64,000 nucleotides of DNA from an uncultured Poribacteria bacterium. GTDB taxonomy: Bacteria; Poribacteria; WGA-4E; WGA-3G. Below, one piece after another: positions 7,231-19,976 of this stretch. Within the stretch, counting starts at the first letter, position 1. Every line of letters begins with the position of its first letter. The stretch covers positions 1,832,630-1,896,629 of the forward strand of contig OX638316.1 of NCBI GenBank assembly GCA_951812525.1. Reading direction: 5' to 3'. The notes under the pieces are model-generated. The model saw only the letters and a program-made list of their open reading frames with translations, searched no databases and was not told where the DNA came from. The translations under genes were made by a program, and so were the position numbers.

Positions 7231-9210
7231 ATGGAAATAAACACAGACGACCGAAAGTCCCGGATCCGTGCCTATCTTCCTGTTAAAAGCCTCCTTTTCC
7301 TGTTAAAAGTCTTGCTTTGCTGTTCTCTCGTGTTCCGTGCTGAGGCGGAGGACGTGTACAGTCTATTTGGCAAGTTGTTTCTATCCGGGCGTGTTGAATA
7401 CGATTTCACAAACAGACGGAACTTCCTCGCAGATTCAGAGGAGGAACGCGTTCGGCAAGACAGCTTCGATTTCGACCGCCTCTTTCGGCGCGGCTTTCAC
7501 AGTGTCATGGTGATTGAGGAGACGGCGGGCAGTGTCAAAAATATCCTAAGTCTTGGAGAGGTCCCGACGACCTTCACACAATTCACCTTCGATCAGATCG
7601 ACCTAAGCGGGGTCCGCTGGGAGGTCCGCTCCAGTCGCACCGATTGGACAATTCTTATGGTTCCTGGTTTGCTTAACCGACTGAATGGGCAAGAGAGAAG
7701 CATGGAAGGATCCGGTATCGGCTTACGAGAAGTCACGAAATTCGGTAGGTCGCAGTTAGGGCTCTCTTGGTACTTCCGAGAAACGCCTGTGTGGGCAGTG
7801 GATTTGGAAACCAATTTCACCAACTACGGTATAAAAGCAGAGGTGGCTGTCACACCGAAAAGTGCTTTGCAGAAAAATTTACGTTCACGTTTTGATGCGG
7901 CGACAACAGTTTTCAAGGCGTTCCAAACTGTTGGTGATACGCTTTTTCAGGCAGAAGCGTATCGTGTCGGTCCGAGATTTGATGCCTCTCGCTCTGTCGG
8001 TGATAACGATGACCAAGACCGTTACTCCGATAACACCCCACTCGATCCTCCCTCCCTAATTATCCCCGGTGACCTTGACAAAAATAACAACGGTATCTTC
8101 GACTACGAGGACGACATTCTCCTTTTTGATGTTGATGAGGATTTCCTTGACGAAAGCGATCGGAACAACAACGGTATCCGTGATGAGGAGGAGAATGATA
8201 AGGATCCCAATTACGAGTTTGATGTTGGACTGCAAGGCGTTCGGCTGTTCATGAACCGTAAGTTGACGCGTTCGGAGAGTGTCATTGACTTGGATTTTGG
8301 GTTGCAAATGGAAGAGAACCTTGGACTCAGAAATACGCCTACCTCAACGAAGGCTTTCGCGAATATCGTTTACCAGAAAGAACTTGCGCGCGCATCTTCG
8401 CTTATTTTTGAAAACGAGCTGAAGTTGGTAAAAGATCGGATTCCTGATGAGACGTGGTATTATGCTGGATTTCTGGGCAGACAAGATGAGGAGCTTTATC
8501 GATCACAGCCAGAAATCCGAGAGATGGAGGAAGACGGTGATATTCAGTTTTTCGGTGTTGATGGTGGGACAGAGGTCGAAAGGCGGCGCAAGGACCCACT
8601 GCTGATGCAGAACGACCTGATTAATACCGCCAAAATCACGTGGGAATACTTGGGAATTGATCGGATGGTTACAACGGCTCGCGCCAAAATTCAATACGAC
8701 TACGATTTTGAGAAAGACAATCAGCATTATGAAGTCGGTATTTTCAAAACCTTGTACCGGATGCGTCCTTCCAAATCGCTTGAGATCAGTCCGATGTTCA
8801 AATATACCGTCCGTAACGGCTTCCGAATGGCGGAAGATACGCTTGAATATCTTTTCCTAAAGGGGCAAATTGACGACAGGGATGTCACACGGCGACTCCG
8901 ATTGCGCGAGATTGAACGGGCAAATGTACGGGATATGGCTACAGCGCTTATCCTCAAGATCGTCTATCAGTTTACGAAAACCATCAAACTCACCGGTGGC
9001 GGTCAAATTCTCCTGTTCAACGATATGCGTGAAAATGATAACGACTTTGTTCGTCAAGCACTCTTGGCTGAAATGGAAAAGAGTTTTGTCGCTTACGAAA
9101 AGCGAATGTTTCTGCATGTCGGTGCACGATACATAGACCAGCGCGCAATCGGGGATGTAAACGATCAGAACTACATGGAAATTTTTGTGCGAGTCTTTGG
9201 GAAGTTTTAA
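7231..9210 (+). CDS. Predicted outer-membrane beta-barrel protein with calcium-binding loops
   Basis: 659 residues. The N-terminus is a signal peptide (hydrophobic LLFLLKVLLCC, ending near AEA-ED). The rest consists of alternating amphipathic strands typical of outer-membrane barrels, and the protein ends in VRVFGKF; the terminal Phe is the usual signal for the Bam machinery. Residues about 275-325 contain two acidic loops, DLDKNNNGIFDYEDD and DESDRNNNGIRDEEEN, that match the DxDxNxxGxxD pattern of dockerin or thrombospondin-type-3 calcium loops. The family is not recognised. It follows the propeller lipoprotein in the same direction, so a surface-exposed pair is possible. The ATG lacks a clear ribosome site. 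Its stop codon overlaps the stop of the opposite-strand carH-like gene (shared TTAA, 9207-9210). Confidence 0.7.
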   Translation: MEINTDDRKSRIRAYLPVKSLLFLLKVLLCCSLVFRAEAEDVYSLFGKLFLSGRVEYDFTNRRNFLADSEEERVRQDSFDFDRLFRRGFHSVMVIEETAGSVKNILSLGEVPTTFTQFTFDQIDLSGVRWEVRSSRTDWTILMVPGLLNRLNGQERSMEGSGIGLREVTKFGRSQLGLSWYFRETPVWAVDLETNFTNYGIKAEVAVTPKSALQKNLRSRFDAATTVFKAFQTVGDTLFQAEAYRVGPRFDASRSVGDNDDQDRYSDNTPLDPPSLIIPGDLDKNNNGIFDYEDDILLFDVDEDFLDESDRNNNGIRDEEENDKDPNYEFDVGLQGVRLFMNRKLTRSESVIDLDFGLQMEENLGLRNTPTSTKAFANIVYQKELARASSLIFENELKLVKDRIPDETWYYAGFLGRQDEELYRSQPEIREMEEDGDIQFFGVDGGTEVERRRKDPLLMQNDLINTAKITWEYLGIDRMVTTARAKIQYDYDFEKDNQHYEVGIFKTLYRMRPSKSLEISPMFKYTVRNGFRMAEDTLEYLFLKGQIDDRDVTRRLRLREIERANVRDMATALILKIVYQFTKTIKLTGGGQILLFNDMRENDNDFVRQALLAEMEKSFVAYEKRMFLHVGARYIDQRAIGDVNDQNYMEIFVRVFGKF

Positions 9211-10154
9211 TGGTTCTGTTGCGCACGCAAGGCTTCGAGTTCGGTGCGAAAAGTCGGCATGTCATTGATTCTCACTGCACCGATGGAACGAATAGCACGG
9301 TCATAAGCGATTGCCCCTGCACCGCCGACAAACAGCGCGACGTGCTCCTGGGTGCCACGTCGAAGTTTTCGTAATTCATTTGCCAAGTGCGGATCATCTG
9401 TGGGGTAAACGATACTCAACCCAATCGCCTTTGCCCCATTTTGCACTGCACACCCCACTATTTCTTCAGCTGGCAGGTTGGGACCGAGGTAGGTGACTTG
9501 CCACCCTTCCGAAGCTGCGGTCGTTCCCGCAATTAATGCGCCGATTTCATGAAGCTGACCCCGCGGTGTCGTTATCACTAAGTTTGGCATTGAGGCAGAT
9601 ATATCAGATCCTTGGCAAATAGTGCCCAATAATGTCCGGACAACTGCCGTGGCAAGATGCTCATGCGCAATCCGCAAAGTTCCTGCTCTCCACTGGTTAC
9701 CAATTTCCTGCATCAGCGGTACGATCAACTTTTCGAGGAAAACAGGCTGGCTAAAGGCGACCGATGCAGCGAAGAGTGTTGACTCGAGCGCGTGCGCCTG
9801 AAACTGCTTAACCGCTGCGATGCACGAAGCGATGTAAAAACGAAGCGATGCTTCTTGTGAAACAACCTCTTTCGCAATCCCAGAGAACTCTGTAACCGTT
9901 CCGTCCGTTCCAATGAGTTCCTGAAGTTTTTTAGTCGACAGTTTTGCTATGCGTCCAATGCTATGTCCCGCCTCAGTCGCCAGACGCAGCAACGTGAGTC
10001 GCGATATATCCGCGTCAGAATAGAGGCGACGATTCGTTTCGGTTCTCAGCGGTGTGACCACACCGTATCGCCTTTCCCATGCCCGAATGACAAATTGTGT
10101 TAATCCTGTTTGAATGGCAACGGTTTTAATACCATATTTGTGTTCGTCCGTCAT
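9207..10154 (-). CDS. carH: CarH-type MerR-family regulator with cobalamin (B12) photoreceptor domain
   Basis: 315 residues from the ATG at 10154, which has AGGGAAG upstream. Residues 8-80 form a MerR winged helix (RAWERRYG, then RLYSDADI). Residues about 95-185 are the helical B12-cap domain and contain W155-x9-E165-H166 exactly as in adenosylcobalamin-dependent CarH/LitR regulators. Residues about 190-310 are a Rossmann-type B12-binding domain with H202 as the likely lower ligand; the usual (D/E)xHxxG reads QLHEIG here. In the family, the protein with adenosylcobalamin represses carotenoid genes in the dark as a tetramer and falls off DNA when light breaks the Co-C bond. It is divergent from the carotenoid cluster and should control it and itself. 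An in-frame TTG at 10373 would add 73 residues but has no visible ribosome site; the first promoter found is about 320 bases upstream of the chosen start. Confidence 0.9.
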   Translation of the reverse strand: MTDEHKYGIKTVAIQTGLTQFVIRAWERRYGVVTPLRTETNRRLYSDADISRLTLLRLATEAGHSIGRIAKLSTKKLQELIGTDGTVTEFSGIAKEVVSQEASLRFYIASCIAAVKQFQAHALESTLFAASVAFSQPVFLEKLIVPLMQEIGNQWRAGTLRIAHEHLATAVVRTLLGTICQGSDISASMPNLVITTPRGQLHEIGALIAGTTAASEGWQVTYLGPNLPAEEIVGCAVQNGAKAIGLSIVYPTDDPHLANELRKLRRGTQEHVALFVGGAGAIAYDRAIRSIGAVRINDMPTFRTELEALRAQQNH

Positions 10155-10418
10155 CAGTCTTCCCTTGTTTATTTTTTTCGTCTTGATTATAGGAATTCCG
10201 CGCACTTTCGGTGTCGCTTCATCAACATTTATCCTCAAATTACCCAAGTTGCTACTTTCAAATAAACGGCGGCACTTTACATGAGCTGGTTCATTATTCA
10301 CAGCGTTTTCGTACCGCAAACTGTTAGTTTGCTGGCTGCCAGACGCAACAGAGTTGATTGGTACCATACACAAGCCACAATCTAACAGATTATGCTACAA
10401 AAATAGCAACTTGGGTTC

Positions 10419-10473
10419 AAATTGTAAACTAAATTGTAAGGACTCACGTTTTTGCATCTAAATGTTACAATTT
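10419..10473. repeat. Two direct and one inverted 9-bp AAATTGTAA elements
   Basis: AAATTGTAA occurs at 10419-10427 and 10431-10439, and its reverse complement TTACAATTT at 10465-10473, just downstream of the carH -10. This could be a further regulator site or AT-rich chance. The remainder of 10155-10815 between carH and idi shows no gene. Confidence 0.35.
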
Positions 10474-10503
10474 AATATAACATTATGTATATTATTTGTC
10501 AAT
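10473..10503 (-). promoter_or_regulatory. carH promoter with overlapping candidate CarH operator
   Basis: On the minus strand, TTGACA (10502-10497), a 17-base spacer and TATATT (10479-10474) form a strong sigma-70 type promoter. The -35 sits in aTTGACAa (10503-10496) and a second unit, aTATACAt, lies exactly 11 bases further on (10492-10485). Both fit nTnnACAn, the core of the tandem 11-bp repeats bound by Thermus CarH. A third, degenerate unit covers the -10. The arrangement is the same as at the carotenoid promoter. Confidence 0.7.
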
Positions 10504-10673
10504 AATTTTGTCAGTGAGTTATTTCTGTCTAAATTCCAGAATTAAACAGAGCAGGAATCTGGATTTCGTTTTGATTTGCCTATTTAGAGTGAATTCTAGT
10601 TGAGTGATCTCATCCGATTACACTACATAATTTCTATACAAAATTGAATTTCAATAAAATTGTATAAATAATT

Positions 10674-10707
10674 ATTGACATAATATAGACAATATGTAAT
10701 AATATTG
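10674..10707 (+). promoter_or_regulatory. Carotenoid cluster promoter with overlapping candidate CarH operator
   Basis: TTGACA (10675-10680) and AATAAT (10698-10703) are separated by 17 bases. The -35 lies in aTTGACAt (10674-10681), and a second nTnnACAn unit, aTAGACAa, starts exactly 11 bases later (10685-10692); a degenerate third unit covers the -10. There is also a perfect inverted repeat, CAATAT (10690-10695) and ATATTG (10702-10707). The promoter is about 110 bases before idi. Confidence 0.75.
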
Positions 10708-10815: not shown

Positions 10816-11352
10816 ATGCAAGATCATGTAGTACTCGTAGACCGGATGGGCAGAGAAATCGGGACCCAAGAAAAGATACAAGCACATCGTGAAGGTAAAT
10901 TACACAGCGCATTTTCGATTTTTGTATTTAATACCAGAGGCGAATTATTACTGCAGAGACGGGCGCGGACAAAGTATCATTCCGGTGGGCTGTGGACGAA
11001 TACCTGCTGTAGTCATCCGCGCCCGGGGGAACATTATCATCACGCAGCGAGACGACGGCTCAATGAGGAAATGGGTTTCGATTGTCGATTGACAGGGCTC
11101 TTCAGTTTTATTTATCATACCCAACTCGACAATAACCTATTTGAGCACGAACTCGATCAGGTCTTTGTTGGACACTATAACGGTCAGCCCACCCCGAATC
11201 CGAATGAAGTTGATGATTGGAAGTGGATGAACATAAGCGCGTTAAAACGGGATGTTCAGGAGAACCCTGAAAACTACACACACTGGTTCAAACTGGCATT
11301 GGATCGTGTGGTTGAACAGTCCCAAAAAATCAGTTTTTACGATGAAACTTAA
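10816..11352 (+). CDS. idi: Isopentenyl-diphosphate delta-isomerase, type I
   Basis: 178 residues, the normal length. It interconverts isopentenyl and dimethylallyl diphosphate, the C5 units for carotenoids, in the cytosol. It is a Nudix-fold protein: the catalytic Cys lies in NTCCSHPRPGE, the Nudix-like helix in RRLNEEMG, and the metal-binding/catalytic Glu region in EHELDQVF. First gene of the carotenoid cluster, about 110 bases downstream of a promoter that carries candidate CarH sites, so it is probably induced by light. The next gene starts within its last 11 bases, implying translational coupling. Confidence 0.93.
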   Translation: MQDHVVLVDRMGREIGTQEKIQAHREGKLHSAFSIFVFNTRGELLLQRRARTKYHSGGLWTNTCCSHPRPGEHYHHAARRRLNEEMGFDCRLTGLFSFIYHTQLDNNLFEHELDQVFVGHYNGQPTPNPNEVDDWKWMNISALKRDVQENPENYTHWFKLALDRVVEQSQKISFYDET

Positions 11353-11938
11353 CCGATTTTTTCATATTAGTTTGGTATTAATATTGCTTATCTCTCTGTG
11401 GGTTGACGGTGCTGTATCTAACGAATCAGCGGAGAAAATGCTGGAGGTTGCACGAAAGCAGTTCTATGCCGCCGTCGAAGACGAAAAGCGGATTGAACCG
11501 ACGATTGCGTTGTTTGAGCAAATTGGAGAAACGGAACCGGAGTATGTTGGGCGTACACAGGTCTATATCGGTGCGCTTGTTGCGCTCAAGGGAAAACATG
11601 CTTTTTTTCCGCACACTAAACTCAAGTGGGTAAATCGCGGTTTAGCAATTATGGATGGTGGTTTGAAAAAAGGTCCAGGCGATATTGAAGCACTCTTTAT
11701 CCACGGGACAACCTGTTACTATCTTCCATTCTTCTTCCAACGCCGTGATGATGTCCAGCGAGATTTTAAAGAGATTATCAAACAAATGCCGCTACAGGTG
11801 CATGCCTACGACCCGAAGTTAATCACAAATATCGTTGTATTCTTACTTGAAAATGCGAAACTAACGCCTGATGAGAAAGTATATCTCCAGGCACTCAAAA
11901 GCAGATTGGAATCGCAACGTCCAGTTGCACATCAATGA
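11342..11938 (+). CDS. Unknown secreted protein in the carotenoid operon
   Basis: 198 residues from the ATG at 11342, which overlaps the end of idi. Residues 1-25 are a clear signal peptide (hydrophobic HISLVLILLISLWV, then GAVSN). The mature part is helical with a TPR-like feel: EKMLEVARKQFYAAVEDE, then ALFEQIGETEP, then a W and GLAIMDGGLKKGPGDIEAL and YYLPFFFQRR. The function is not recognised. It overlaps idi upstream and crtYcd downstream, so it is made together with carotenoid enzymes and would act in the periplasm or at the membrane. Possible roles are as a scaffold or in carotenoid handling, but this is only inference from position. Confidence 0.75.
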   Translation: MKLNRFFHISLVLILLISLWVDGAVSNESAEKMLEVARKQFYAAVEDEKRIEPTIALFEQIGETEPEYVGRTQVYIGALVALKGKHAFFPHTKLKWVNRGLAIMDGGLKKGPGDIEALFIHGTTCYYLPFFFQRRDDVQRDFKEIIKQMPLQVHAYDPKLITNIVVFLLENAKLTPDEKVYLQALKSRLESQRPVAHQ

Positions 11939-12618
11939 AATTTGAATATCTTCTGTTTAACTTTGTTGTTATTGCGGGACCTGTCGTATCCCAATTCAGT
12001 CGCCAGATTAAACACGTTTCGCGTTGGCGATTGAAACTACTCGTAAGCGGGATTGTCATGATTCCTTATGTTATATGGGATGCACTCGTCGCCGGTTCGC
12101 ATTGGTGGTTCAACGATGCGTATACGCTTAACTTTCGATTATTCGGTTTACCGATCGAGGAGTGGCTCTTTTTCATTACGGTTCCGTTTGGGTGTTTGTT
12201 GGTGTGGGAGACACTGCCACACACTGATAGTTGGTTAGGACGGTTAAAATCCCTTCGGTATGTCAGAACGAGTTTATACACTACGCTACCGATAGGTGTG
12301 TGGGTTTTTAGCACGGGCAAGCAATATACAGGACTGGTGCTATTCTGTTTTGGACTTGTCGCACTGGTGGATACGTTGTTAAGGGTCGATCTCCTCCTAC
12401 GTCCGAAGACCTATCTTTATCTCGTAATTGTTTCTGTTTTGATTTTAGTGTTCAACGGTTATCTCACAGCGCGGCCGGTTGTGTTATATGGTGAAGCGTA
12501 TCAGGTTGGCTACCGAATTTTAACCATTCCTCTTGAGGATATCGGATACGGCTTTACACTAATGCTTTTTAATACAATGCTCTACGAAAAACTCAGGACA
12601 ACTCGGTATGGAAAATAA
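11935..12618 (+). CDS. crtYcd: Lycopene cyclase, CrtYc-CrtYd fusion type
   Basis: 227 residues with about six or seven membrane helices. It carries the two paired motifs of the CarR/CrtYcd cyclase family, LPIEEWLFF near residue 70 and IPLEDIGYGF near residue 200, one from each of the ancestral CrtYc and CrtYd halves. It forms beta rings on lycopene; with CruF in the same cluster, a single ring (gamma-carotene type) is the likely outcome. The ATG overlaps the TGA of the previous gene (ATGA), and the next gene begins inside its last 11 bases. Confidence 0.88.
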   Translation: MKFEYLLFNFVVIAGPVVSQFSRQIKHVSRWRLKLLVSGIVMIPYVIWDALVAGSHWWFNDAYTLNFRLFGLPIEEWLFFITVPFGCLLVWETLPHTDSWLGRLKSLRYVRTSLYTTLPIGVWVFSTGKQYTGLVLFCFGLVALVDTLLRVDLLLRPKTYLYLVIVSVLILVFNGYLTARPVVLYGEAYQVGYRILTIPLEDIGYGFTLMLFNTMLYEKLRTTRYGK

Positions 12619-14110
12619 AAAGGTCGCAGTCATTGGTGGTGGACTCGGTGCGCTAAGCGGTGCGATTCGTCTCGCTCGGCTCGGATTCTCTGTACAACTG
12701 TTCGAGAAGAATCCGAAAATCGGTGGAAAGGTGAACGAGGTCGTTTTGGGAGACTACCGATTTGATACCGGTGCATCGCTGTTGACAATGCCGTTTGTGA
12801 TTGAAGAGCTGTTCGATTTTGCTGGCTTCACGCTGTCAGATTATCTCGATTTCGTGCCAATTGATCCGATATGCCGATACTTCTTTCCAGATGGTTCAGT
12901 GATGGATGCGAGTGCCGACAAGACGAAGATGAAAGCTGCGATTGCACAGTTATCACCCGATGACGTGGCAGGATATGAGCGTTTTTTGAAATATACGGAA
13001 CGGATTCACGACTTAACAGCCGAAATCTTTATGTTCACACCGATCCATGAATTCAAGAAACTCATGAAGCCTCGGCATTTTCAGACGCTATTCAGACTTC
13101 ATCAAATTGATCCATTTCGGACGGTACACCAGAGTGTATCGCGTTTTTTCTCCGATCCGCGGCTCATTCAGCTTTTTGACCGCTACGCCACTTACAACGG
13201 CTCCGATCCGTTTCAAGCCCCCGCAACCCTTAACATAATTCCGTATATTGAGTACGGATTGGGTGGGTATTACGTCAAGGGTGGAATATATCGTCTGATT
13301 GATGCACTCGAAACGGTGGCGTATGAATTAGGGGTTCAGATTCACACATCGGCGAAGGTTGAAAAAATCTGCCATGATGGTAGACGAGCCAGTGGTGTGC
13401 AGGTTAATGGTGAAAGGGTTGAAGCGGATTACGTACTGTGTGGTGCCGATGCAGTCGTAGCATACAACGAATTGATTGATGGACATCAGAACCGACGCGA
13501 TAAATTGAATCGATTGGAACCGTCGTTGTCAGGAATGGTGTTCCTCTGGGGTGTTGGTGCTAAACATGCCGAGTTAGCGCACCATAACATTGTCTTCTCC
13601 AACGACTACGATGCAGAATTCAAGCAGATTTTTAAACACCAACAGGTACCCGATGAACCGACTATCTATATTGCCATAACGAGTAAAGCGGATGCCGGAC
13701 ATGCACGAGTTGATGGAGAAAATTGGTTTGTATTGCTGAACATGCCGTCTCTCGCCCCGGAACAGATATGGGAGAAAGAGAAAGATCGGATGCGATCAGT
13801 GGTGCTGGATAAGTTAAGACGACTCGGTTTTGACATCGCCGATCGAATTGAGGTGGAGCAGGTCTACACACCGGAAGATTTTTCTGAACTTTACGCCAGT
13901 AATCAAGGAAGCATCTACGGCATATCGTCTAATAGCAAAGCCACTGCATTCAAACGGATACCGAATCGGAGCCGTATGCTTGATGGGCTTTATTTCGCTG
14001 GTGGTTCGGTGCATCCCGGCGGTGGAATCCCGTTGGTGATGTTATCAGGAAAGATGGCAGCGACATTGATTGCGGAGAATCACGAATCTAAAATATCGGG
14101 TTTATGTTAG
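12608..14110 (+). CDS. crtD: CrtD-like carotenoid 3,4-desaturase (CrtI family)
   Basis: 500 residues. The N-terminal FAD-binding motif is IGGGLGALSGAIRLA followed by FEKNPKIGGK. The C-terminal cofactor motif, FAGGSVHPGGGIPLVMLSG, has the HPGGG form common in CrtD rather than the HPGAG form of CrtI. In this setting it probably introduces the 3',4' double bond into a 1'-hydroxylated carotenoid made by CruF. FDTGAS replaces the more usual FDTGPS. It is the last of four overlapping genes that start with idi. It could instead be a second phytoene desaturase; the CrtD assignment rests on motif form and on the presence of a separate CrtI next door. Confidence 0.8.
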   Translation: MENKKVAVIGGGLGALSGAIRLARLGFSVQLFEKNPKIGGKVNEVVLGDYRFDTGASLLTMPFVIEELFDFAGFTLSDYLDFVPIDPICRYFFPDGSVMDASADKTKMKAAIAQLSPDDVAGYERFLKYTERIHDLTAEIFMFTPIHEFKKLMKPRHFQTLFRLHQIDPFRTVHQSVSRFFSDPRLIQLFDRYATYNGSDPFQAPATLNIIPYIEYGLGGYYVKGGIYRLIDALETVAYELGVQIHTSAKVEKICHDGRRASGVQVNGERVEADYVLCGADAVVAYNELIDGHQNRRDKLNRLEPSLSGMVFLWGVGAKHAELAHHNIVFSNDYDAEFKQIFKHQQVPDEPTIYIAITSKADAGHARVDGENWFVLLNMPSLAPEQIWEKEKDRMRSVVLDKLRRLGFDIADRIEVEQVYTPEDFSELYASNQGSIYGISSNSKATAFKRIPNRSRMLDGLYFAGGSVHPGGGIPLVMLSGKMAATLIAENHESKISGLC

Positions 14111-14208
14111 GTCAACTAATAGGATTGATGGGAGTTAAAGGGCGTCAAACAGCGTATATCTTGTGGAATTGACACTATCCTCGCAATTCCGTGACAGAGG
14201 TATGGGAT

Positions 14209-15690
14209 ATGAAACGGAAAATCATTATCATCGGTTCAGGATTTGGCGGTCTCGCAGCAGCGATTCGACTGCAAGCGAAAGGCATGCAGGTCACGATTCT
14301 GGAGAAGAACGCGAAAGTTGGTGGTCACGCTTATCAGTTGGTTAAAGATGGCTACACTTTCGACATGGGACCATCAATTATCACAGCACCCGACCTGATT
14401 CAGCGTGTATTTGCGTGCGCTGGTGTGCGTATGGAAGATTACCTTGACTTGGTAAAGCTCGATCCGTTTTATCGTATCTACTACCACGACGGTTCATCGC
14501 TCGACTATACGAATAACAGCGAACAGATGAAACAGCAGATGGTGCAATTCAACGAGACGGACGCTGCTAACTATGACCGTTTCATGGCGCATACCCGTCA
14601 ACTCTACGACGCTGTTATTACCGATGGTTTGGGATCGATACCGTTTGACTTGCCCACAATGCTCGGCTTTCTGCCGCGTGCCTTACGACTTCAGGCATTG
14701 ATGCCCGCTTATGACTTCGTTAAGAAGTATTTTGAGGACCCGCGCCACCGTTTTACTTTTTCGTTTCACCCACTGTTCATAGGCGGCAATCCGTTCCGGG
14801 CACCGGCGGTTTACCTAATGATTCCCTATCTTGAAAAAACTGGTGGGGTCTGGTTCTGCAAAGGTGGCATGTATAGTCTCGTTCGGGCATTGGAAGATGT
14901 GTTCAAGAGACTCGGTGGGGTCATTGAAATCGATACAGAGGTAGAAAATATCATTATTGAGAATAGGAAGACGAAAGGCGTGATGGCAAAAGGGCTGTTT
15001 TACGAAGCGGACGGCATTATTTCCAATGCCGATCTTGTACACACCTACGGGGAACTTATTGGATCCGAGCATCGTAGGAAATGGTCTAACAAAAAATTGA
15101 GGAAAACCCAATATTCAATGAGTGCATTTCTACTCTACCTCGGTGTTAGGAAAAAATATTCGCAACTGGCGCATCATACGCTTATTCTTTCTGAGAGATA
15201 CAAGGGATTGGTAAACGACATTTTTGACAATAAAATTCTGCCAGACGATTTTTCAATGTATTTACACATTCCGTCACAAACCGATCCGTCGATGGCACCG
15301 GAGGATTGTGAGAGCATGTACGTATTGATCCCTGTGCCGAATTTGGAGAGCGGAATCAACTGGGAAAAGACAAAACAGAAATATACAGACAAAGTGCTGA
15401 AGTTCTTGGAGGACGACTTCGGACTGACTGATCTGAGGCGTTCGATTGAAGTCCTTGAAACGTTTACACCTTCAGATTTCAAGAAACAACGGAACAACCA
15501 TCTCGGCAGTGCATGGGGCGTTGAGCCAAAACTGACGCAGACAGCCTATTTTCGACCGCATAACCGGAGTGAAGATGTCCAGAATCTCTACTTTGTAGGA
15601 GCAAGCACGCATCCGGGTGCTGGGGTACCCGGCGTACTTCTGACGGCTGAAACGACGGTGAAATTAGTCGTTGACGATTTAATAAAATAA
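14209..15690 (+). CDS. crtI: Phytoene desaturase
   Basis: 493 residues from the ATG at 14209 (AGAGG eight bases upstream); a GTG at 14191 in frame is less likely. Dinucleotide motif IIGSGFGGLAAAIRL, then LEKNAKVGGHAY, FDMGPSIITAP, and the C-terminal FVGASTHPGAGVPGV typical of CrtI. It converts phytoene to lycopene by four desaturations at the membrane, using FAD. A 98-base gap without a gene separates it from the crtD-like gene; no convincing promoter was found there. Confidence 0.9.
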   Translation: MKRKIIIIGSGFGGLAAAIRLQAKGMQVTILEKNAKVGGHAYQLVKDGYTFDMGPSIITAPDLIQRVFACAGVRMEDYLDLVKLDPFYRIYYHDGSSLDYTNNSEQMKQQMVQFNETDAANYDRFMAHTRQLYDAVITDGLGSIPFDLPTMLGFLPRALRLQALMPAYDFVKKYFEDPRHRFTFSFHPLFIGGNPFRAPAVYLMIPYLEKTGGVWFCKGGMYSLVRALEDVFKRLGGVIEIDTEVENIIIENRKTKGVMAKGLFYEADGIISNADLVHTYGELIGSEHRRKWSNKKLRKTQYSMSAFLLYLGVRKKYSQLAHHTLILSERYKGLVNDIFDNKILPDDFSMYLHIPSQTDPSMAPEDCESMYVLIPVPNLESGINWEKTKQKYTDKVLKFLEDDFGLTDLRRSIEVLETFTPSDFKKQRNNHLGSAWGVEPKLTQTAYFRPHNRSEDVQNLYFVGASTHPGAGVPGVLLTAETTVKLVVDDLIK

Positions 15691-15736
15691 TTTAATCTTT
15701 TCAGTGTTCAGACATTACTCGGGAGAGGCACGCCCT

Positions 15737-15847
15737 ACACGGTAGACGAGGTTTCTAACCTCGGCGGAATACCTCACACGGTAGGCGAGGTTTCTAACCT
15801 CGCTAGGAGAGACACACCCTACACGGTAAGCGAGGTTTCTAACCTCG
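15737..15847 (+). repeat. Three tandem copies of a 27-bp palindromic repeat within the carotenoid operon
   Basis: Copies at 15737-15763, 15776-15802 and 15821-15847 share ACACGGTAGGCGAGG followed by the palindrome GAGGTT-TCT-AACCTC. Units are spaced 39 and 45 bases apart and fill the gap between crtI and crtB, ending three bases before the crtB ribosome site (TAGGAGG). Related palindromes occur at 35281-35310 (inverted) and 48250-48280. Confidence 0.85.
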
Positions 15848-15866
15848 CAGTATAGGAGGAAATATC

Positions 15867-16796
15867 ATGAAGTTGTGGAAACCCGCAAACGAGAACCGCG
15901 CAGCTTTTGAGCATGCTCGTAGAATAACTGCCTATTATTCAAAAAGTTTCTATTTCTCCGCACGGATGCTGCCCAGCGAGCAGCGTTGGGCAACCTACGC
16001 CTTGTACGGATTCTGCCGACACTGTGATAATCTGATTGATGTCCCGCGCCAACGAACTGAGGCGGAAATTCTCAGAGAGGTTCAATTCGTGGGAGAAGAA
16101 TTGCAAATTGCCTACGATACAGGCGAGTCCGAACACCCTGTCATTCGTGCCTTTATTCTTGTGGCTAAATCTTATGGAATTCCTATTGCATATCCGCTCG
16201 ATCTGCTCAAGGGTGTTGCCATGGATATCCAGCAGACGCGGTACAAAACGTTTGATGACCTCTCGCTTTTCTGCTATAGAGTTGCTGCTGTTGTTGGTTT
16301 AATGATGACCCATGTGCTTGGTTATAAGGACGATCGGACTTTTGACTACGCCAGACAACTCGGCATTGCCATGCAGCTGACCAATATTCTGCGAGATGTC
16401 AAAGAGGATAAAGAGATGGGGCGCATCTATATACCACAGACGGATTTAGTGCGATTCGGTGTATCGGAACAACATATCTTTGACGAAATCATGACCCCTC
16501 AATTGAAAGCACTTATAAAATTTCAAATCGAACGAGCAGATCGCTATTATGCTGAAGCAATACCGGGGATTTCCCTGCTCAATACGGATTCACAGTATGC
16601 AATTTATTCAGCTGCTAAAATTTACCGCGGTATCTTAAGAAAAATCGAAGCCCGCGACTGCAACCCGTTCTTAGGTCGAGTTTTTGTGCCATCAATTGAA
16701 AAAATGGGGATTCTGTTACACGAAGGACTCCGTACGAAGGTCCTATCGGCACAGGAGAAACTGTTCCCAGCACACTCTGGAATAATAAATAAATGA
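15867..16796 (+). CDS. crtB: Phytoene synthase
   Basis: 309 residues, preceded by a strong AGGAGG. It condenses two geranylgeranyl diphosphates head to head into phytoene. Both aspartate-rich motifs are present: CRHCDNLID (about residues 51-59) and LTNILRDVKED (about 170-182), along with ARRITAYYSKSFYFSARMLP at the start of the fold. Its stop overlaps the start of the acyltransferase gene (ATGA). A GGPP synthase gene is not in this window, so its substrate must come from elsewhere. Confidence 0.93.
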   Translation: MKLWKPANENRAAFEHARRITAYYSKSFYFSARMLPSEQRWATYALYGFCRHCDNLIDVPRQRTEAEILREVQFVGEELQIAYDTGESEHPVIRAFILVAKSYGIPIAYPLDLLKGVAMDIQQTRYKTFDDLSLFCYRVAAVVGLMMTHVLGYKDDRTFDYARQLGIAMQLTNILRDVKEDKEMGRIYIPQTDLVRFGVSEQHIFDEIMTPQLKALIKFQIERADRYYAEAIPGISLLNTDSQYAIYSAAKIYRGILRKIEARDCNPFLGRVFVPSIEKMGILLHEGLRTKVLSAQEKLFPAHSGIINK

Positions 16797-17449
16797 TTCG
16801 CGCACAACACCGCCTTTGGGCAGACCTCATTTTCCAGCCGTATCTCAAATGGTTATTCAAACGGCATTTTCATACAATCCAACTTTTGGGTACGCTGCCC
16901 GAAATTCCACCTCGTATGCCGGTGTTATTGCTACCGAATCACAGTACATGGTGGGACGGATTCTTTATTTATCTGCTCAACAAACGAATTTTCCGACGGA
17001 CTGCTTATCTAATGATGCTGGAGGAGCAGCTACGTAAGTACAGATTCTTTGCGAAGATCGGAGCGTATTCGATTGAACCGAAGCATCGACAAGGCATCGT
17101 CAAATCGCTAAAATACACTGTCGAATTGTTAAATCAAGACACACCGCTGGTCTCTATCTTTCCCCAAGGCGAGTTATTGCCGTGGCACACACGTCCGCTC
17201 GGCTACAAGCGCGGTGTTGAATGGGTTTTGCGGGAATATGGAAAACCGGTAGCCGTTCTTCCGTTGGCAATTCGCACTGAATTCCTCGGTGAAAAACGTC
17301 CAAGCGTATTTTTCCTCTTCGGGGAGGTCAATTCGTTCGATTCAGACACATTTCCCGGAATGGACTGGCTTGAAAGGGCTGAAGGTGCTTTGCTGGATGA
17401 CTTGAAACTGCGAATTCTTCGTCAAGAAGAGGGGCAAAATTTGCTATGA
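16793..17449 (+). CDS. PlsC-family acyltransferase, probable carotenoid glycoside acyltransferase
   Basis: 218 residues with the acyltransferase signature NHSTWWDG (HX4D; the family's catalytic His and Asp) near residues 45-51 and the second block FPQGE near 120. The family transfers acyl groups to glycerol phosphates or, in carotenoid clusters, to the sugar of carotenoid glycosides (CruD/CrtO-type role). Placed between crtB and a GT2 enzyme, overlapping crtB by four bases, so the carotenoid role is the best guess. An ordinary phospholipid role cannot be excluded. Confidence 0.75.
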   Translation: MIRAQHRLWADLIFQPYLKWLFKRHFHTIQLLGTLPEIPPRMPVLLLPNHSTWWDGFFIYLLNKRIFRRTAYLMMLEEQLRKYRFFAKIGAYSIEPKHRQGIVKSLKYTVELLNQDTPLVSIFPQGELLPWHTRPLGYKRGVEWVLREYGKPVAVLPLAIRTEFLGEKRPSVFFLFGEVNSFDSDTFPGMDWLERAEGALLDDLKLRILRQEEGQNLL

Positions 17450-17478
17450 TGGTTGTTAGCTAAAGATAGGGTAGTGAT

Positions 17479-18600
17479 TTGATTGTATTGATGTTTATCA
17501 CCATCGGCTTGCTGGCGATTGTTTTAGTTGTCACGCTGTTTAATGCCGCTACTGCGCCAATGCTCAAGAATGCAGACGAATGCCAGAACCGCCCACGCGT
17601 CTCGGTGCTAATTCCCGCTCGCAACGAGGAAGCTAATATCGGTGCTTGTATTGAAGGGTTTCTGGCACAAAAGTACAGCAATTTTGAGATTCGCGTGCTC
17701 GACGATCAGTCAACCGATCGCACCGGTGCCGTCATCAAACAGTTTAGCCAACGACATCCTGAAGTTACAGCAATTCGAGGTAAACCACTATCATCAGGCT
17801 GGATGGGGAAAAATTGGGCGTGCTATCAATTGAGCCAGCAGGCAGATGGTGATATACTTATTTTCACGGATGCAGATAACCGTCCTGCGCCGAACGCGAT
17901 TGCGAATACTGTCGCCTACATGCAAAAGTTCAAGCTTGGGTTATTGTCAGCGTTTCCCGAAAAAGTGACGGGTACTTTAGCAGAGAAGCTCGTGGTGCCG
18001 GTGGTTGACATGTTCGTTTATGCTGGGCTTCCGTTATGGCTTACGTACTTCAGTCGTTTTCCTTCGCTTGCTGCAGCCAGCGGTCTGTGGATCGCATTCA
18101 CCCGCGAGGCATATCAGCGAATTGATGGACATCAAGCGGTATCAAATCAGATTGTTGAAGACGTTGAATTAAGCCGATTGGCAAAAAAGAATGGTATCAA
18201 AATTTTGACCTCGGCTGGCACTCGCGTGGTGTCCTGTAGGATGTATCATTCGTTCGGCGAGGTATGGGGCGGATTTTCCAAAAATCTTTTTGGGCTGGTA
18301 CGCTATAGGACCGTTCCCTTTTTTGTCCTAATGTTTGTTCTGTTTACGATGTGCGTGCTACCCTATATCACTGTCTGGTTTGCACCTCTTACGAAGCTAT
18401 CGCTCGTTGCTATGTCTATGAACATTGCTATGCGGGCTGTACTGTCACTAAAATACAGACATCCCTTCTTTACAAGTGTAGTTTTGCATCCATTTGGTAT
18501 TTTGGCCACTTTGTTGATTGGTATCAATTCATTCTACCAAGTCAAACGCGGTCGCTTGGAGTGGAAAGGACGGCAGATTGACATGCAGGTGAACAGGTAA
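17479..18600 (+). CDS. GT2-family glycosyltransferase, probable carotenoid glycosyltransferase (CruC/CrtQ-like)
   Basis: 373 residues. An N-terminal helix precedes a GT-A domain: VSVLIPARNEEANI, VLDDQSTDRT, FTDADNRP (DxD) and VEDVELSRLAKKNG (the ED base motif with following R). Two or three membrane helices follow from about residue 270. This is the layout of CrtQ and CruC, which add a sugar to hydroxyl or carboxyl groups of carotenoids on the inner membrane. The likely acceptor is the 1'-hydroxyl made by CruF. The start is probably TTG at 17479, with AGGG upstream; an ATG at 17491 is possible. Confidence 0.78.
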   Translation: MIVLMFITIGLLAIVLVVTLFNAATAPMLKNADECQNRPRVSVLIPARNEEANIGACIEGFLAQKYSNFEIRVLDDQSTDRTGAVIKQFSQRHPEVTAIRGKPLSSGWMGKNWACYQLSQQADGDILIFTDADNRPAPNAIANTVAYMQKFKLGLLSAFPEKVTGTLAEKLVVPVVDMFVYAGLPLWLTYFSRFPSLAAASGLWIAFTREAYQRIDGHQAVSNQIVEDVELSRLAKKNGIKILTSAGTRVVSCRMYHSFGEVWGGFSKNLFGLVRYRTVPFFVLMFVLFTMCVLPYITVWFAPLTKLSLVAMSMNIAMRAVLSLKYRHPFFTSVVLHPFGILATLLIGINSFYQVKRGRLEWKGRQIDMQVNR

Positions 18601-19263
18601 GTGAATAAACTAAAGATTGGTGTGCTTTATCTACTTTTGGGGGCAGGTGGGCTGTGGCATGTACTCGATGTCTTCCAAGGCATTATGCGAACCTTCGCTG
18701 CTCCGATGATGTTTGGTTTAGGGATCTGGCTGTTTTGGGAATGCTGGCGGGTATGCCCACGGCAGACAAGATGGAGATTTGCCCTCTGGAGTATAGGTAT
18801 TATTATAGGTAGTTTCGGAATTGAATGGCTCGGTGTTCGGACGGGTCAAATTTTCGGTGAGTATACGTACGGACAGACCTTGCGTCCGTCAATTGATGGT
18901 GTGCCAATCTGTATTGGGTGTGCATGGTTTGTTATGCTCATCTCCTCAGTTGCTGTTGCCCAGACAATCGCACGGAAATTCGTAGCTAAAAGTACTATCA
19001 AGTTGGCATTATGTGTAGCATTGTTAATGGTCTGTTTCGACCTGTTTATGGAGCCTGCAGCAGGAACTTTGGACTATTGGGTATGGGTTGACAAACGTAT
19101 TCCGCTGCAGAACTATCTGGCGTGGTTCGGATTAAGTTTTATCTTTGCGGGCATTGGTATAAAAGCAGGCTTGTTTACCCGACTGCCTCTACCTCGAATC
19201 GCGTTCCACTTCTATTTTGCGCAACTCATTTATTTCGGACTTGTGGACTTGAAAAGCTTATGA
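18601..19263 (+). CDS. cruF: CruF-type carotenoid 1',2'-hydratase
   Basis: 220 residues with about seven membrane helices. Family motifs: SFGIEWLGVRTGQIFGEYTYG (acidic residue in helix), then DLFMEPAAGTLDYWVW and PLQNYLAWFG. These match the CruF/bisanhydrobacterioruberin hydratase family, which adds water to the psi end of a carotenoid, giving a tertiary 1'-OH. It begins with GTG directly after the TAA of the glycosyltransferase gene and overlaps crtW by four bases. Confidence 0.85.
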   Translation: MNKLKIGVLYLLLGAGGLWHVLDVFQGIMRTFAAPMMFGLGIWLFWECWRVCPRQTRWRFALWSIGIIIGSFGIEWLGVRTGQIFGEYTYGQTLRPSIDGVPICIGCAWFVMLISSVAVAQTIARKFVAKSTIKLALCVALLMVCFDLFMEPAAGTLDYWVWVDKRIPLQNYLAWFGLSFIFAGIGIKAGLFTRLPLPRIAFHFYFAQLIYFGLVDLKSL

Positions 19264-19976
19264 AATCAGCAAACAAGGGTTTATTCATTGCGTTAGTGAT
19301 TATCGGTCTGTGGGGATTAACTCTCTCAATTTTGCTCACATTCAATGTTGCTGGGATTAGCATCGCACTCATACCTTTGGGTGTGCTTTGCCAGACTTTG
19401 CTCTATACCGGTCTGTTTATCACAGCACACGATGCGATGCACGGTTCGGTTTGCCAAGCGCGTCCGCGAGTCAACAATGTAATTGGAGCAATCGCTGTTG
19501 GGTTATACGCTTTGTTTTCATATCGCAAGTTATTAGAGAAGCATTGGGCACATCATCGAACACCCGCAAGCGATACCGACCCAGATTTTCACGATGGAGA
19601 ACACGGCGGATTCTTGGCGTGGTATTTTCATTTTATGAAGGAATACCTCAGTTGGAAACAGATAGTCGGGATGGCGGTTGTCTTTCAGGCCATGGAATAC
19701 GTTTTGGGGATTTTGACGCTCAACCTGATATTCTTCTGGGTTTCTCCGGCACTGCTTAGCACGCTACAACTGTTTTATTTCGGAACATACCTGCCGCATC
19801 GCACACCAAAAGGTGGATACGACAATCCGCACCGAGCGCAAAGCAATGCCTATTCCACATTCTGGTCGTTTATCACCTGTTATCACTTCGGCTACCACTG
19901 GGAACACCACGAGTATCCGTACGTGCCGTGGTGGAATCTCCCAGAGGTCCGCAAATGGTTGTCAGTTAGCCACTAA
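19260..19976 (+). CDS. crtW: Beta-carotene ketolase
   Basis: 238 residues from the ATG at 19260 (ATGA overlap with cruF). A membrane di-iron enzyme with the expected histidine clusters: HDAMH, HWAHH and HWEHHEYP. It puts a 4-keto group on a beta ring, here presumably the single ring formed by CrtYcd. Last gene of the cluster. Its stop shares CTAA (19973-19976) with the stop of the opposite-strand ornithine-cyclodeaminase-family gene. Confidence 0.9.
   Translation: MKSANKGLFIALVIIGLWGLTLSILLTFNVAGISIALIPLGVLCQTLLYTGLFITAHDAMHGSVCQARPRVNNVIGAIAVGLYALFSYRKLLEKHWAHHRTPASDTDPDFHDGEHGGFLAWYFHFMKEYLSWKQIVGMAVVFQAMEYVLGILTLNLIFFWVSPALLSTLQLFYFGTYLPHRTPKGGYDNPHRAQSNAYSTFWSFITCYHFGYHWEHHEYPYVPWWNLPEVRKWLSVSH

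Follow-up and report, generated by a model that had tools for sequence, protein, structure and literature searches.

Predicted operators of a CarH-like regulator at the divergent carotenoid promoters of an uncultured Poribacteria bacterium

The genome analysed here, complete at 5.06 Mb, belongs to an uncultured, sponge-associated member of the phylum Candidatus Poribacteria. In it, the two divergent promoters of a carotenoid locus each carry a pair of 11-bp units. We read both sites as predicted operators of the adjacent CarH-type repressor, blocked in the dark and freed by light, and place the probability of this reading at roughly 85%. On this model CarH, a vitamin-B12 light sensor, would in darkness be charged with adenosylcobalamin (AdoCbl) and occupy the tandem 11-bp units, so that both the -35 and the spacer are covered. 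RNA polymerase would thereby be kept off the carotenoid operon and, with less stringency, off carH itself. Light would then break the Co-C bond and dissolve the oligomer, and both promoters would be freed. We accordingly call it likely that both genes are repressed in the dark and released by light. What the DNA and protein sequences show directly is the pairing of the units, how far they are conserved, that they depend on carH, and the intact AdoCbl signature; from these we infer binding, repression, the change of oligomer and the response to light.

The locus and its paired promoter units

The window, by which we mean the whole stretch of 64,000 nucleotides analysed, contains a carH-like gene and an idi-led carotenoid operon that diverge from a shared spacer of 661 bp (33% GC):

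9207 to 10154, minus strand: carH-like gene, 315 amino acids, ATG at 10154 (Pfam MerR_1, B12-binding_2 and B12-binding; top PDB match Thermus thermophilus CarH, TtCarH)
10816 to 11352, plus strand: idi-like NUDIX gene, first of the operon (Pfam NUDIX; opens the equivalent operon in relatives)
11342 to 19976, plus strand: remainder of the operon (Pfam matches; gene order conserved in relatives)

Downstream of idi, the operon encodes an unknown protein, a lycopene cyclase, two CrtI-type desaturases, a phytoene synthase, an acyltransferase, a glycosyltransferase, a CruF-type protein and a CrtW/desaturase-type protein. The linkage to carotenoid genes that marks CarH and class I LitR is therefore seen in this divergent crt operon, and also in the co-occurrence of carH and crtB across the phylum (Fisher 4e-13, with species not independent). 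The tandem 11-bp TnnACA operator of the same class is found as well, since both promoters have the form TTGACA-N5-TnnACA, with two full, conserved CarH-type units 11 bp apart:

10497 to 10502, minus strand: carH-side unit 1, the -35 TTGACA (sequence match)
10486 to 10491, minus strand: carH-side unit 2, TATACA, within the spacer (offset 11; strict pair in 11 of 21 genomes)
10474 to 10479, minus strand: -10 of the carH promoter, TATATT (5/6 match; 17-bp spacer)
10675 to 10680, plus strand: idi-side unit 1, the -35 TTGACA (sequence match)
10686 to 10691, plus strand: idi-side unit 2, TAGACA, within the spacer (offset 11; full TnnACA in 18 of 18 genomes, plus G053 and G071)
10698 to 10703, plus strand: -10 of the idi promoter, AATAAT, with TG just before it (5/6 match; 17-bp spacer)

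The original prediction had placed these units, with their shared layout of a -35 TTGACA, a second unit at +11 and 17-base spacing, correctly at both promoters. It had further held that the TTGACA promoters of leuS (34996) and DegT (62230) are without a second unit, and indeed no other TTGACA in the window is followed by a full unit at +11. A degenerate third unit over each -10, also claimed, did not survive: its core scores 1/4 at carH and 2/4 at idi, about what chance would give, and the third repeat was dropped. Each promoter thus has two full units only, which we count against reading them as CarH operators. Aligned with each other, the two promoters form an inverted repeat of 35 nt with 77% complementarity. 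We also considered whether the operators might be helically phased or joined by a loop; they lie about 154-174 bp apart in most genomes, and we make no such claim because these distances hold no constant phase.

A competing account holds that these are merely AT-rich sigma-70 promoters, shared by close relatives through conservation, in which the second TnnACA is incidental. In its favour, each site has good -35 and -10 elements within DNA of 18-25% GC, and another promoter of the genome (L007) likewise has a chance pair. Genome-wide, TTGACAN5TnnACA occurs 10 times in 5.06 Mb (9 times for the reversed control), and two of the 10 sites fall at the carH/idi locus, 189 bp apart. To gauge chance, the 661-bp spacer was simulated 20,000 times with a first-order Markov model, and a TTGACA pair on both strands arose at a frequency of 5e-5. 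Conditional on two promoters of this kind, p = 0.006 for a full unit at one specified position. The second unit of L007 is lost in relatives, whereas that of idi never is. Together with the comparisons that follow, in which the pair disappears from the same operon where carH is missing and the 11-bp register stands 60-fold over chance in other phyla, this leaves the plain-promoter account very improbable. Of the 10 pairs in the genome, L007 is the one further site that clearly resembles a promoter; as its second unit is not conserved, we propose no further CarH target, and a wider regulon was set aside.

Conservation of the operators and their association with carH

The 11-bp spacing on which the original prediction had staked itself is conserved in related loci, both within the phylum and across phyla. 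A carH-like regulator is present in 28 of 85 Poribacteria genomes. The strict idi-side pair occurs in all 18 genomes with a complete carH-idi spacer (host included), with the consensus TTGACA[TA]AATATAGACAATATGTAATAAT, and the strict carH-side pair in 11 of 21 (window included), its second unit being degenerate in the other 10. This difference points to a stronger constraint on the crt-side operator than on the carH-side one, and it makes autoregulation the weaker half of our interpretation. In at least six of the 10 genomes with a degenerate +11 unit (L015, L016, L017, L018, L021 and L023), a perfect TAGACA occurs instead, 12 bp upstream of the carH -35, which looks as if the repeat had turned over.

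Presence of the operator tracks that of the regulator. When the 22-base operator was searched for with up to two mismatches in the 85 Poribacteria genomes, it was found in 22 of 28 carH-positive but 1 of 57 carH-negative genomes (Fisher 6e-14, a guide only, since species are not independent); the reversed control gave zero matches in the same search. For the six carH-positive genomes in which it was missing there is a partial explanation: in one the contig ends, in one the locus is remodelled, in one the operon has been deleted, and three have distant homologues. Natural deletions point the same way. Two genomes (G019 and G021) keep the same crt operon, with genes 62-86% identical to those of the window, behind a transporter-like gene and without carH, and the operator is absent from the operon of both. 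In a third (G063), carH is retained and the operon lost, and the operator was not found. The proposed tie between the operators and the adjacent CarH is thus supported by co-occurrence and by these deletions, and the comparison across many genomes shows that the sites are genuine and go together with the sensor gene.

Some irregular loci are recorded here in their own right. In G036 (L035/L040), carH is frameshifted, both operators and idi are intact, and no phytoene synthase passed the cut-off used. Recoding was considered for an in-frame TAG in three close carH homologues and rejected, as the TAGs sit at the gene end.

Published CarH operators are TnnACA 11-bp repeats that contain the -35 (PMC9304148), and the same code emerges outside the phylum. 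Upstream of carH homologues that are nearly all non-Poribacteria (among them Ignavibacteria, Zixibacteria, Abditibacteriales, Verrucomicrobia, Gemmatimonadetes and Hydrogenedentes), 55 strict 11-bp pairs were observed against 0.9 expected from mononucleotide shuffles, a 60-fold excess. Additional forward units peak at -33, -22, +22, +33, +44 and +55. Each offset is a multiple of 11, the register of CarH operators described in the literature (PMC9304148). An enrichment of this size makes the operator grammar predictive enough to map CarH targets from sequence. Two gammaproteobacterial CarH-like proteins (L100 and L102) are without the AdoCbl residues (Trp, His), and strict 11-bp TnnACA pairs remain within about 180 bp upstream of their genes, a pattern that suggests B12-independent relatives sharing the CarH operator code.

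The CarH-like regulator and its predicted response to light

By its sequence, the regulator is CarH-like. It has the fused domains of CarH and class I LitR, namely a MerR helix-turn-helix, a helical-bundle B12-binding domain and a Rossmann B12-binding domain, all with Pfam scores over the cut-offs; class II LitR is defined by a missing Rossmann B12 domain and a LOV partner, and here the Rossmann domain is present. The closest PDB entries are those of TtCarH, both by sequence (1e-27) and by fold (1e-15, full-length). NCBIfam NF052513 (TransRegCarH) is the best model match over the full length, but at 122.8 bits, below its curated 400-bit cut-off for strict orthologues, and we therefore do not name the protein an NCBI 'equivalog' CarH. 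The genome also encodes a PduO-type adenosyltransferase for making AdoCbl.

The motifs GxxW, EH, GxxH and GxxxP are given as the AdoCbl light-sensing signature in PMC11796333, and the window protein has the complete set (G152-W155, E165-H166, G199-H202 and G224-P228), near invariant in its homologues. As a separate observation, every Poribacteria homologue has QxH in place of the ExH motif of TtCarH (residue 200 of the window protein), as do nearly all relatives from other phyla, a variant that by this distribution marks a subfamily.

Another position that differs is His132, the upper ligand of the bis-His light state of TtCarH, whose equivalent is Arg156 in the window protein and Arg, Lys, Gln or Ser across the phylum (Arg or Lys in nearly all Poribacteria homologues). 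The bis-His state cannot form without this residue, and TtCarH H132A is impaired in light dissociation, staying mostly tetrameric in light (PMC10442372). A repressor that binds these operators in an AdoCbl-dependent or a B12-independent, CarA-like manner and is not released by light is thus conceivable. We regard it as unlikely: every residue that holds AdoCbl is intact, the His132 position varies in homologues that retain the operators, and CtMerR of Chloracidobacterium thermophilum has Arg at this position, yet light still turns its tetramer into a monomer (PMC11796333). His132 is thus no requirement of the family as a whole. The conserved pairs, the intact signature and an Arg/Lys at His132 as in light-responsive CtMerR together make light-lifted repression likely. 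The relief by light is itself a prediction: the signature is intact, but His132 is replaced. Because His132 is often lost while the operators stay the same, these homologues offer a direct test of what the bis-His light state contributes.

The MerR DNA-binding domain, with one unit lying inside each spacer, could also suggest a classical MerR-type activator that untwists the spacer and switches the promoter on. Promoters activated by MerR have spacers of 19-20 bp, whereas those here measure 17 bp. The units are moreover direct repeats over the -35, as in CarH repressors (PMC9304148), and activation appears extremely improbable. Counting against a CarH repressor itself are the missing third unit, the Arg/Lys at His132, the degenerate carH-side unit and the 122.8-bit NF052513 score.

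Related systems and further elements of the locus

The locus is best described as the known, ordinary CarH mechanism in a new lineage, a well-supported new case and not a new kind of system. It shares with T. thermophilus CarH (LitR) the MerR and AdoCbl-binding domains, the carotenoid target and an operator of 11-bp TnnACA direct repeats with the -35 inside one unit. It differs in having two full units where T. thermophilus has three, and in a protein about 27% identical, with Arg/Lys for His132 and Gln for the ExH Glu. Myxobacterial CarH operators (Cystobacterineae, Sorangium and Haliangium) likewise hold the -35 TTGACA inside a repeat, comprise one to three full repeats plus pseudorepeats (in certain myxobacteria even one or two full repeats are enough), and in some species are expected to control divergent promoters through two operators, as here (PMC9304148); the operon is a different one, and Poribacteria add a conserved upstream inverted TATACA pair. 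CtMerR shares the complete AdoCbl signature as well as the Arg, but its DNA-binding domain has diverged, and the accessible part of its report gives no DNA site for comparison (PMC11796333). Among the papers searched, none names both CarH and Poribacteria. The locus would extend the regulation of carotenoids by light through B12, and the operator code that goes with it, to an uncultured sponge-associated phylum. New here are the inverted pair upstream of idi, the looser carH-side conservation and a repeat element in the carH leader.

The inverted pair comprises two arms:

10635 to 10640, plus strand: left arm, TATACA (present in 18 of 18 genomes compared)
10661 to 10666, minus strand: right arm, TATACA on this strand, 8 bp from the idi -35 (18-genome comparison)

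This arrangement is single-copy in the host genome. Across the 18 genomes, the right arm reads TGTATA or differs from it at one base, its end lying 8-9 bp upstream of TTGACA, and the gap between arms is 20-22 bp in most, with 10 and 16 in two. Two roles are conceivable for the pair: it may belong to a composite operator, or a different regulator may bind it. The latter, with CarH a minor player at the idi promoter, would fit the conservation of the pair in 18 of 18 genomes and its resemblance to the TATACA/TGTATA half-sites of class II LitR (PmlR2/PplR1) of Pseudomonas, which binds T(G/A)TACA-N12-TGTA(C/T)A (PMC9758184). We nevertheless consider it improbable, as the spacing varies from 10 to 22 bp, unlike a rigid dimer site, and the genome has a single CarH-type gene at the cut-off used. 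Nor was the pair seen upstream of carH homologues of other phyla, where inverted units form no peak and no offset reached three cases, so an inverted half-site grammar outside Poribacteria was rejected. Class II LitR further differs in its N12 spacing, in keeping one of two B12-binding domains and in needing a LOV partner (PMC9758184). Returning to CarH as the regulator of both promoters, we offer only tentatively, and with some doubt, a composite idi operator in which two direct 11-bp units, covering -35 and spacer, and the inverted TATACA pair upstream would be read by a CarH released by light without the His132 ligand; if true, it would bridge the site designs of class I and class II LitR.

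Finally, an element of about 180 bp at window positions 10238-10418 lies in the leader of carH, downstream of the promoter and upstream of the start codon. Its ends are 17 nt long and 94% complementary (ACCCAAGTTGCTACTTT / AAAATAGCAACTTGGGT), a relative (L012) presents the empty site, and with 49 full or partial matches across the genome it looks like a MITE-type interspersed repeat.
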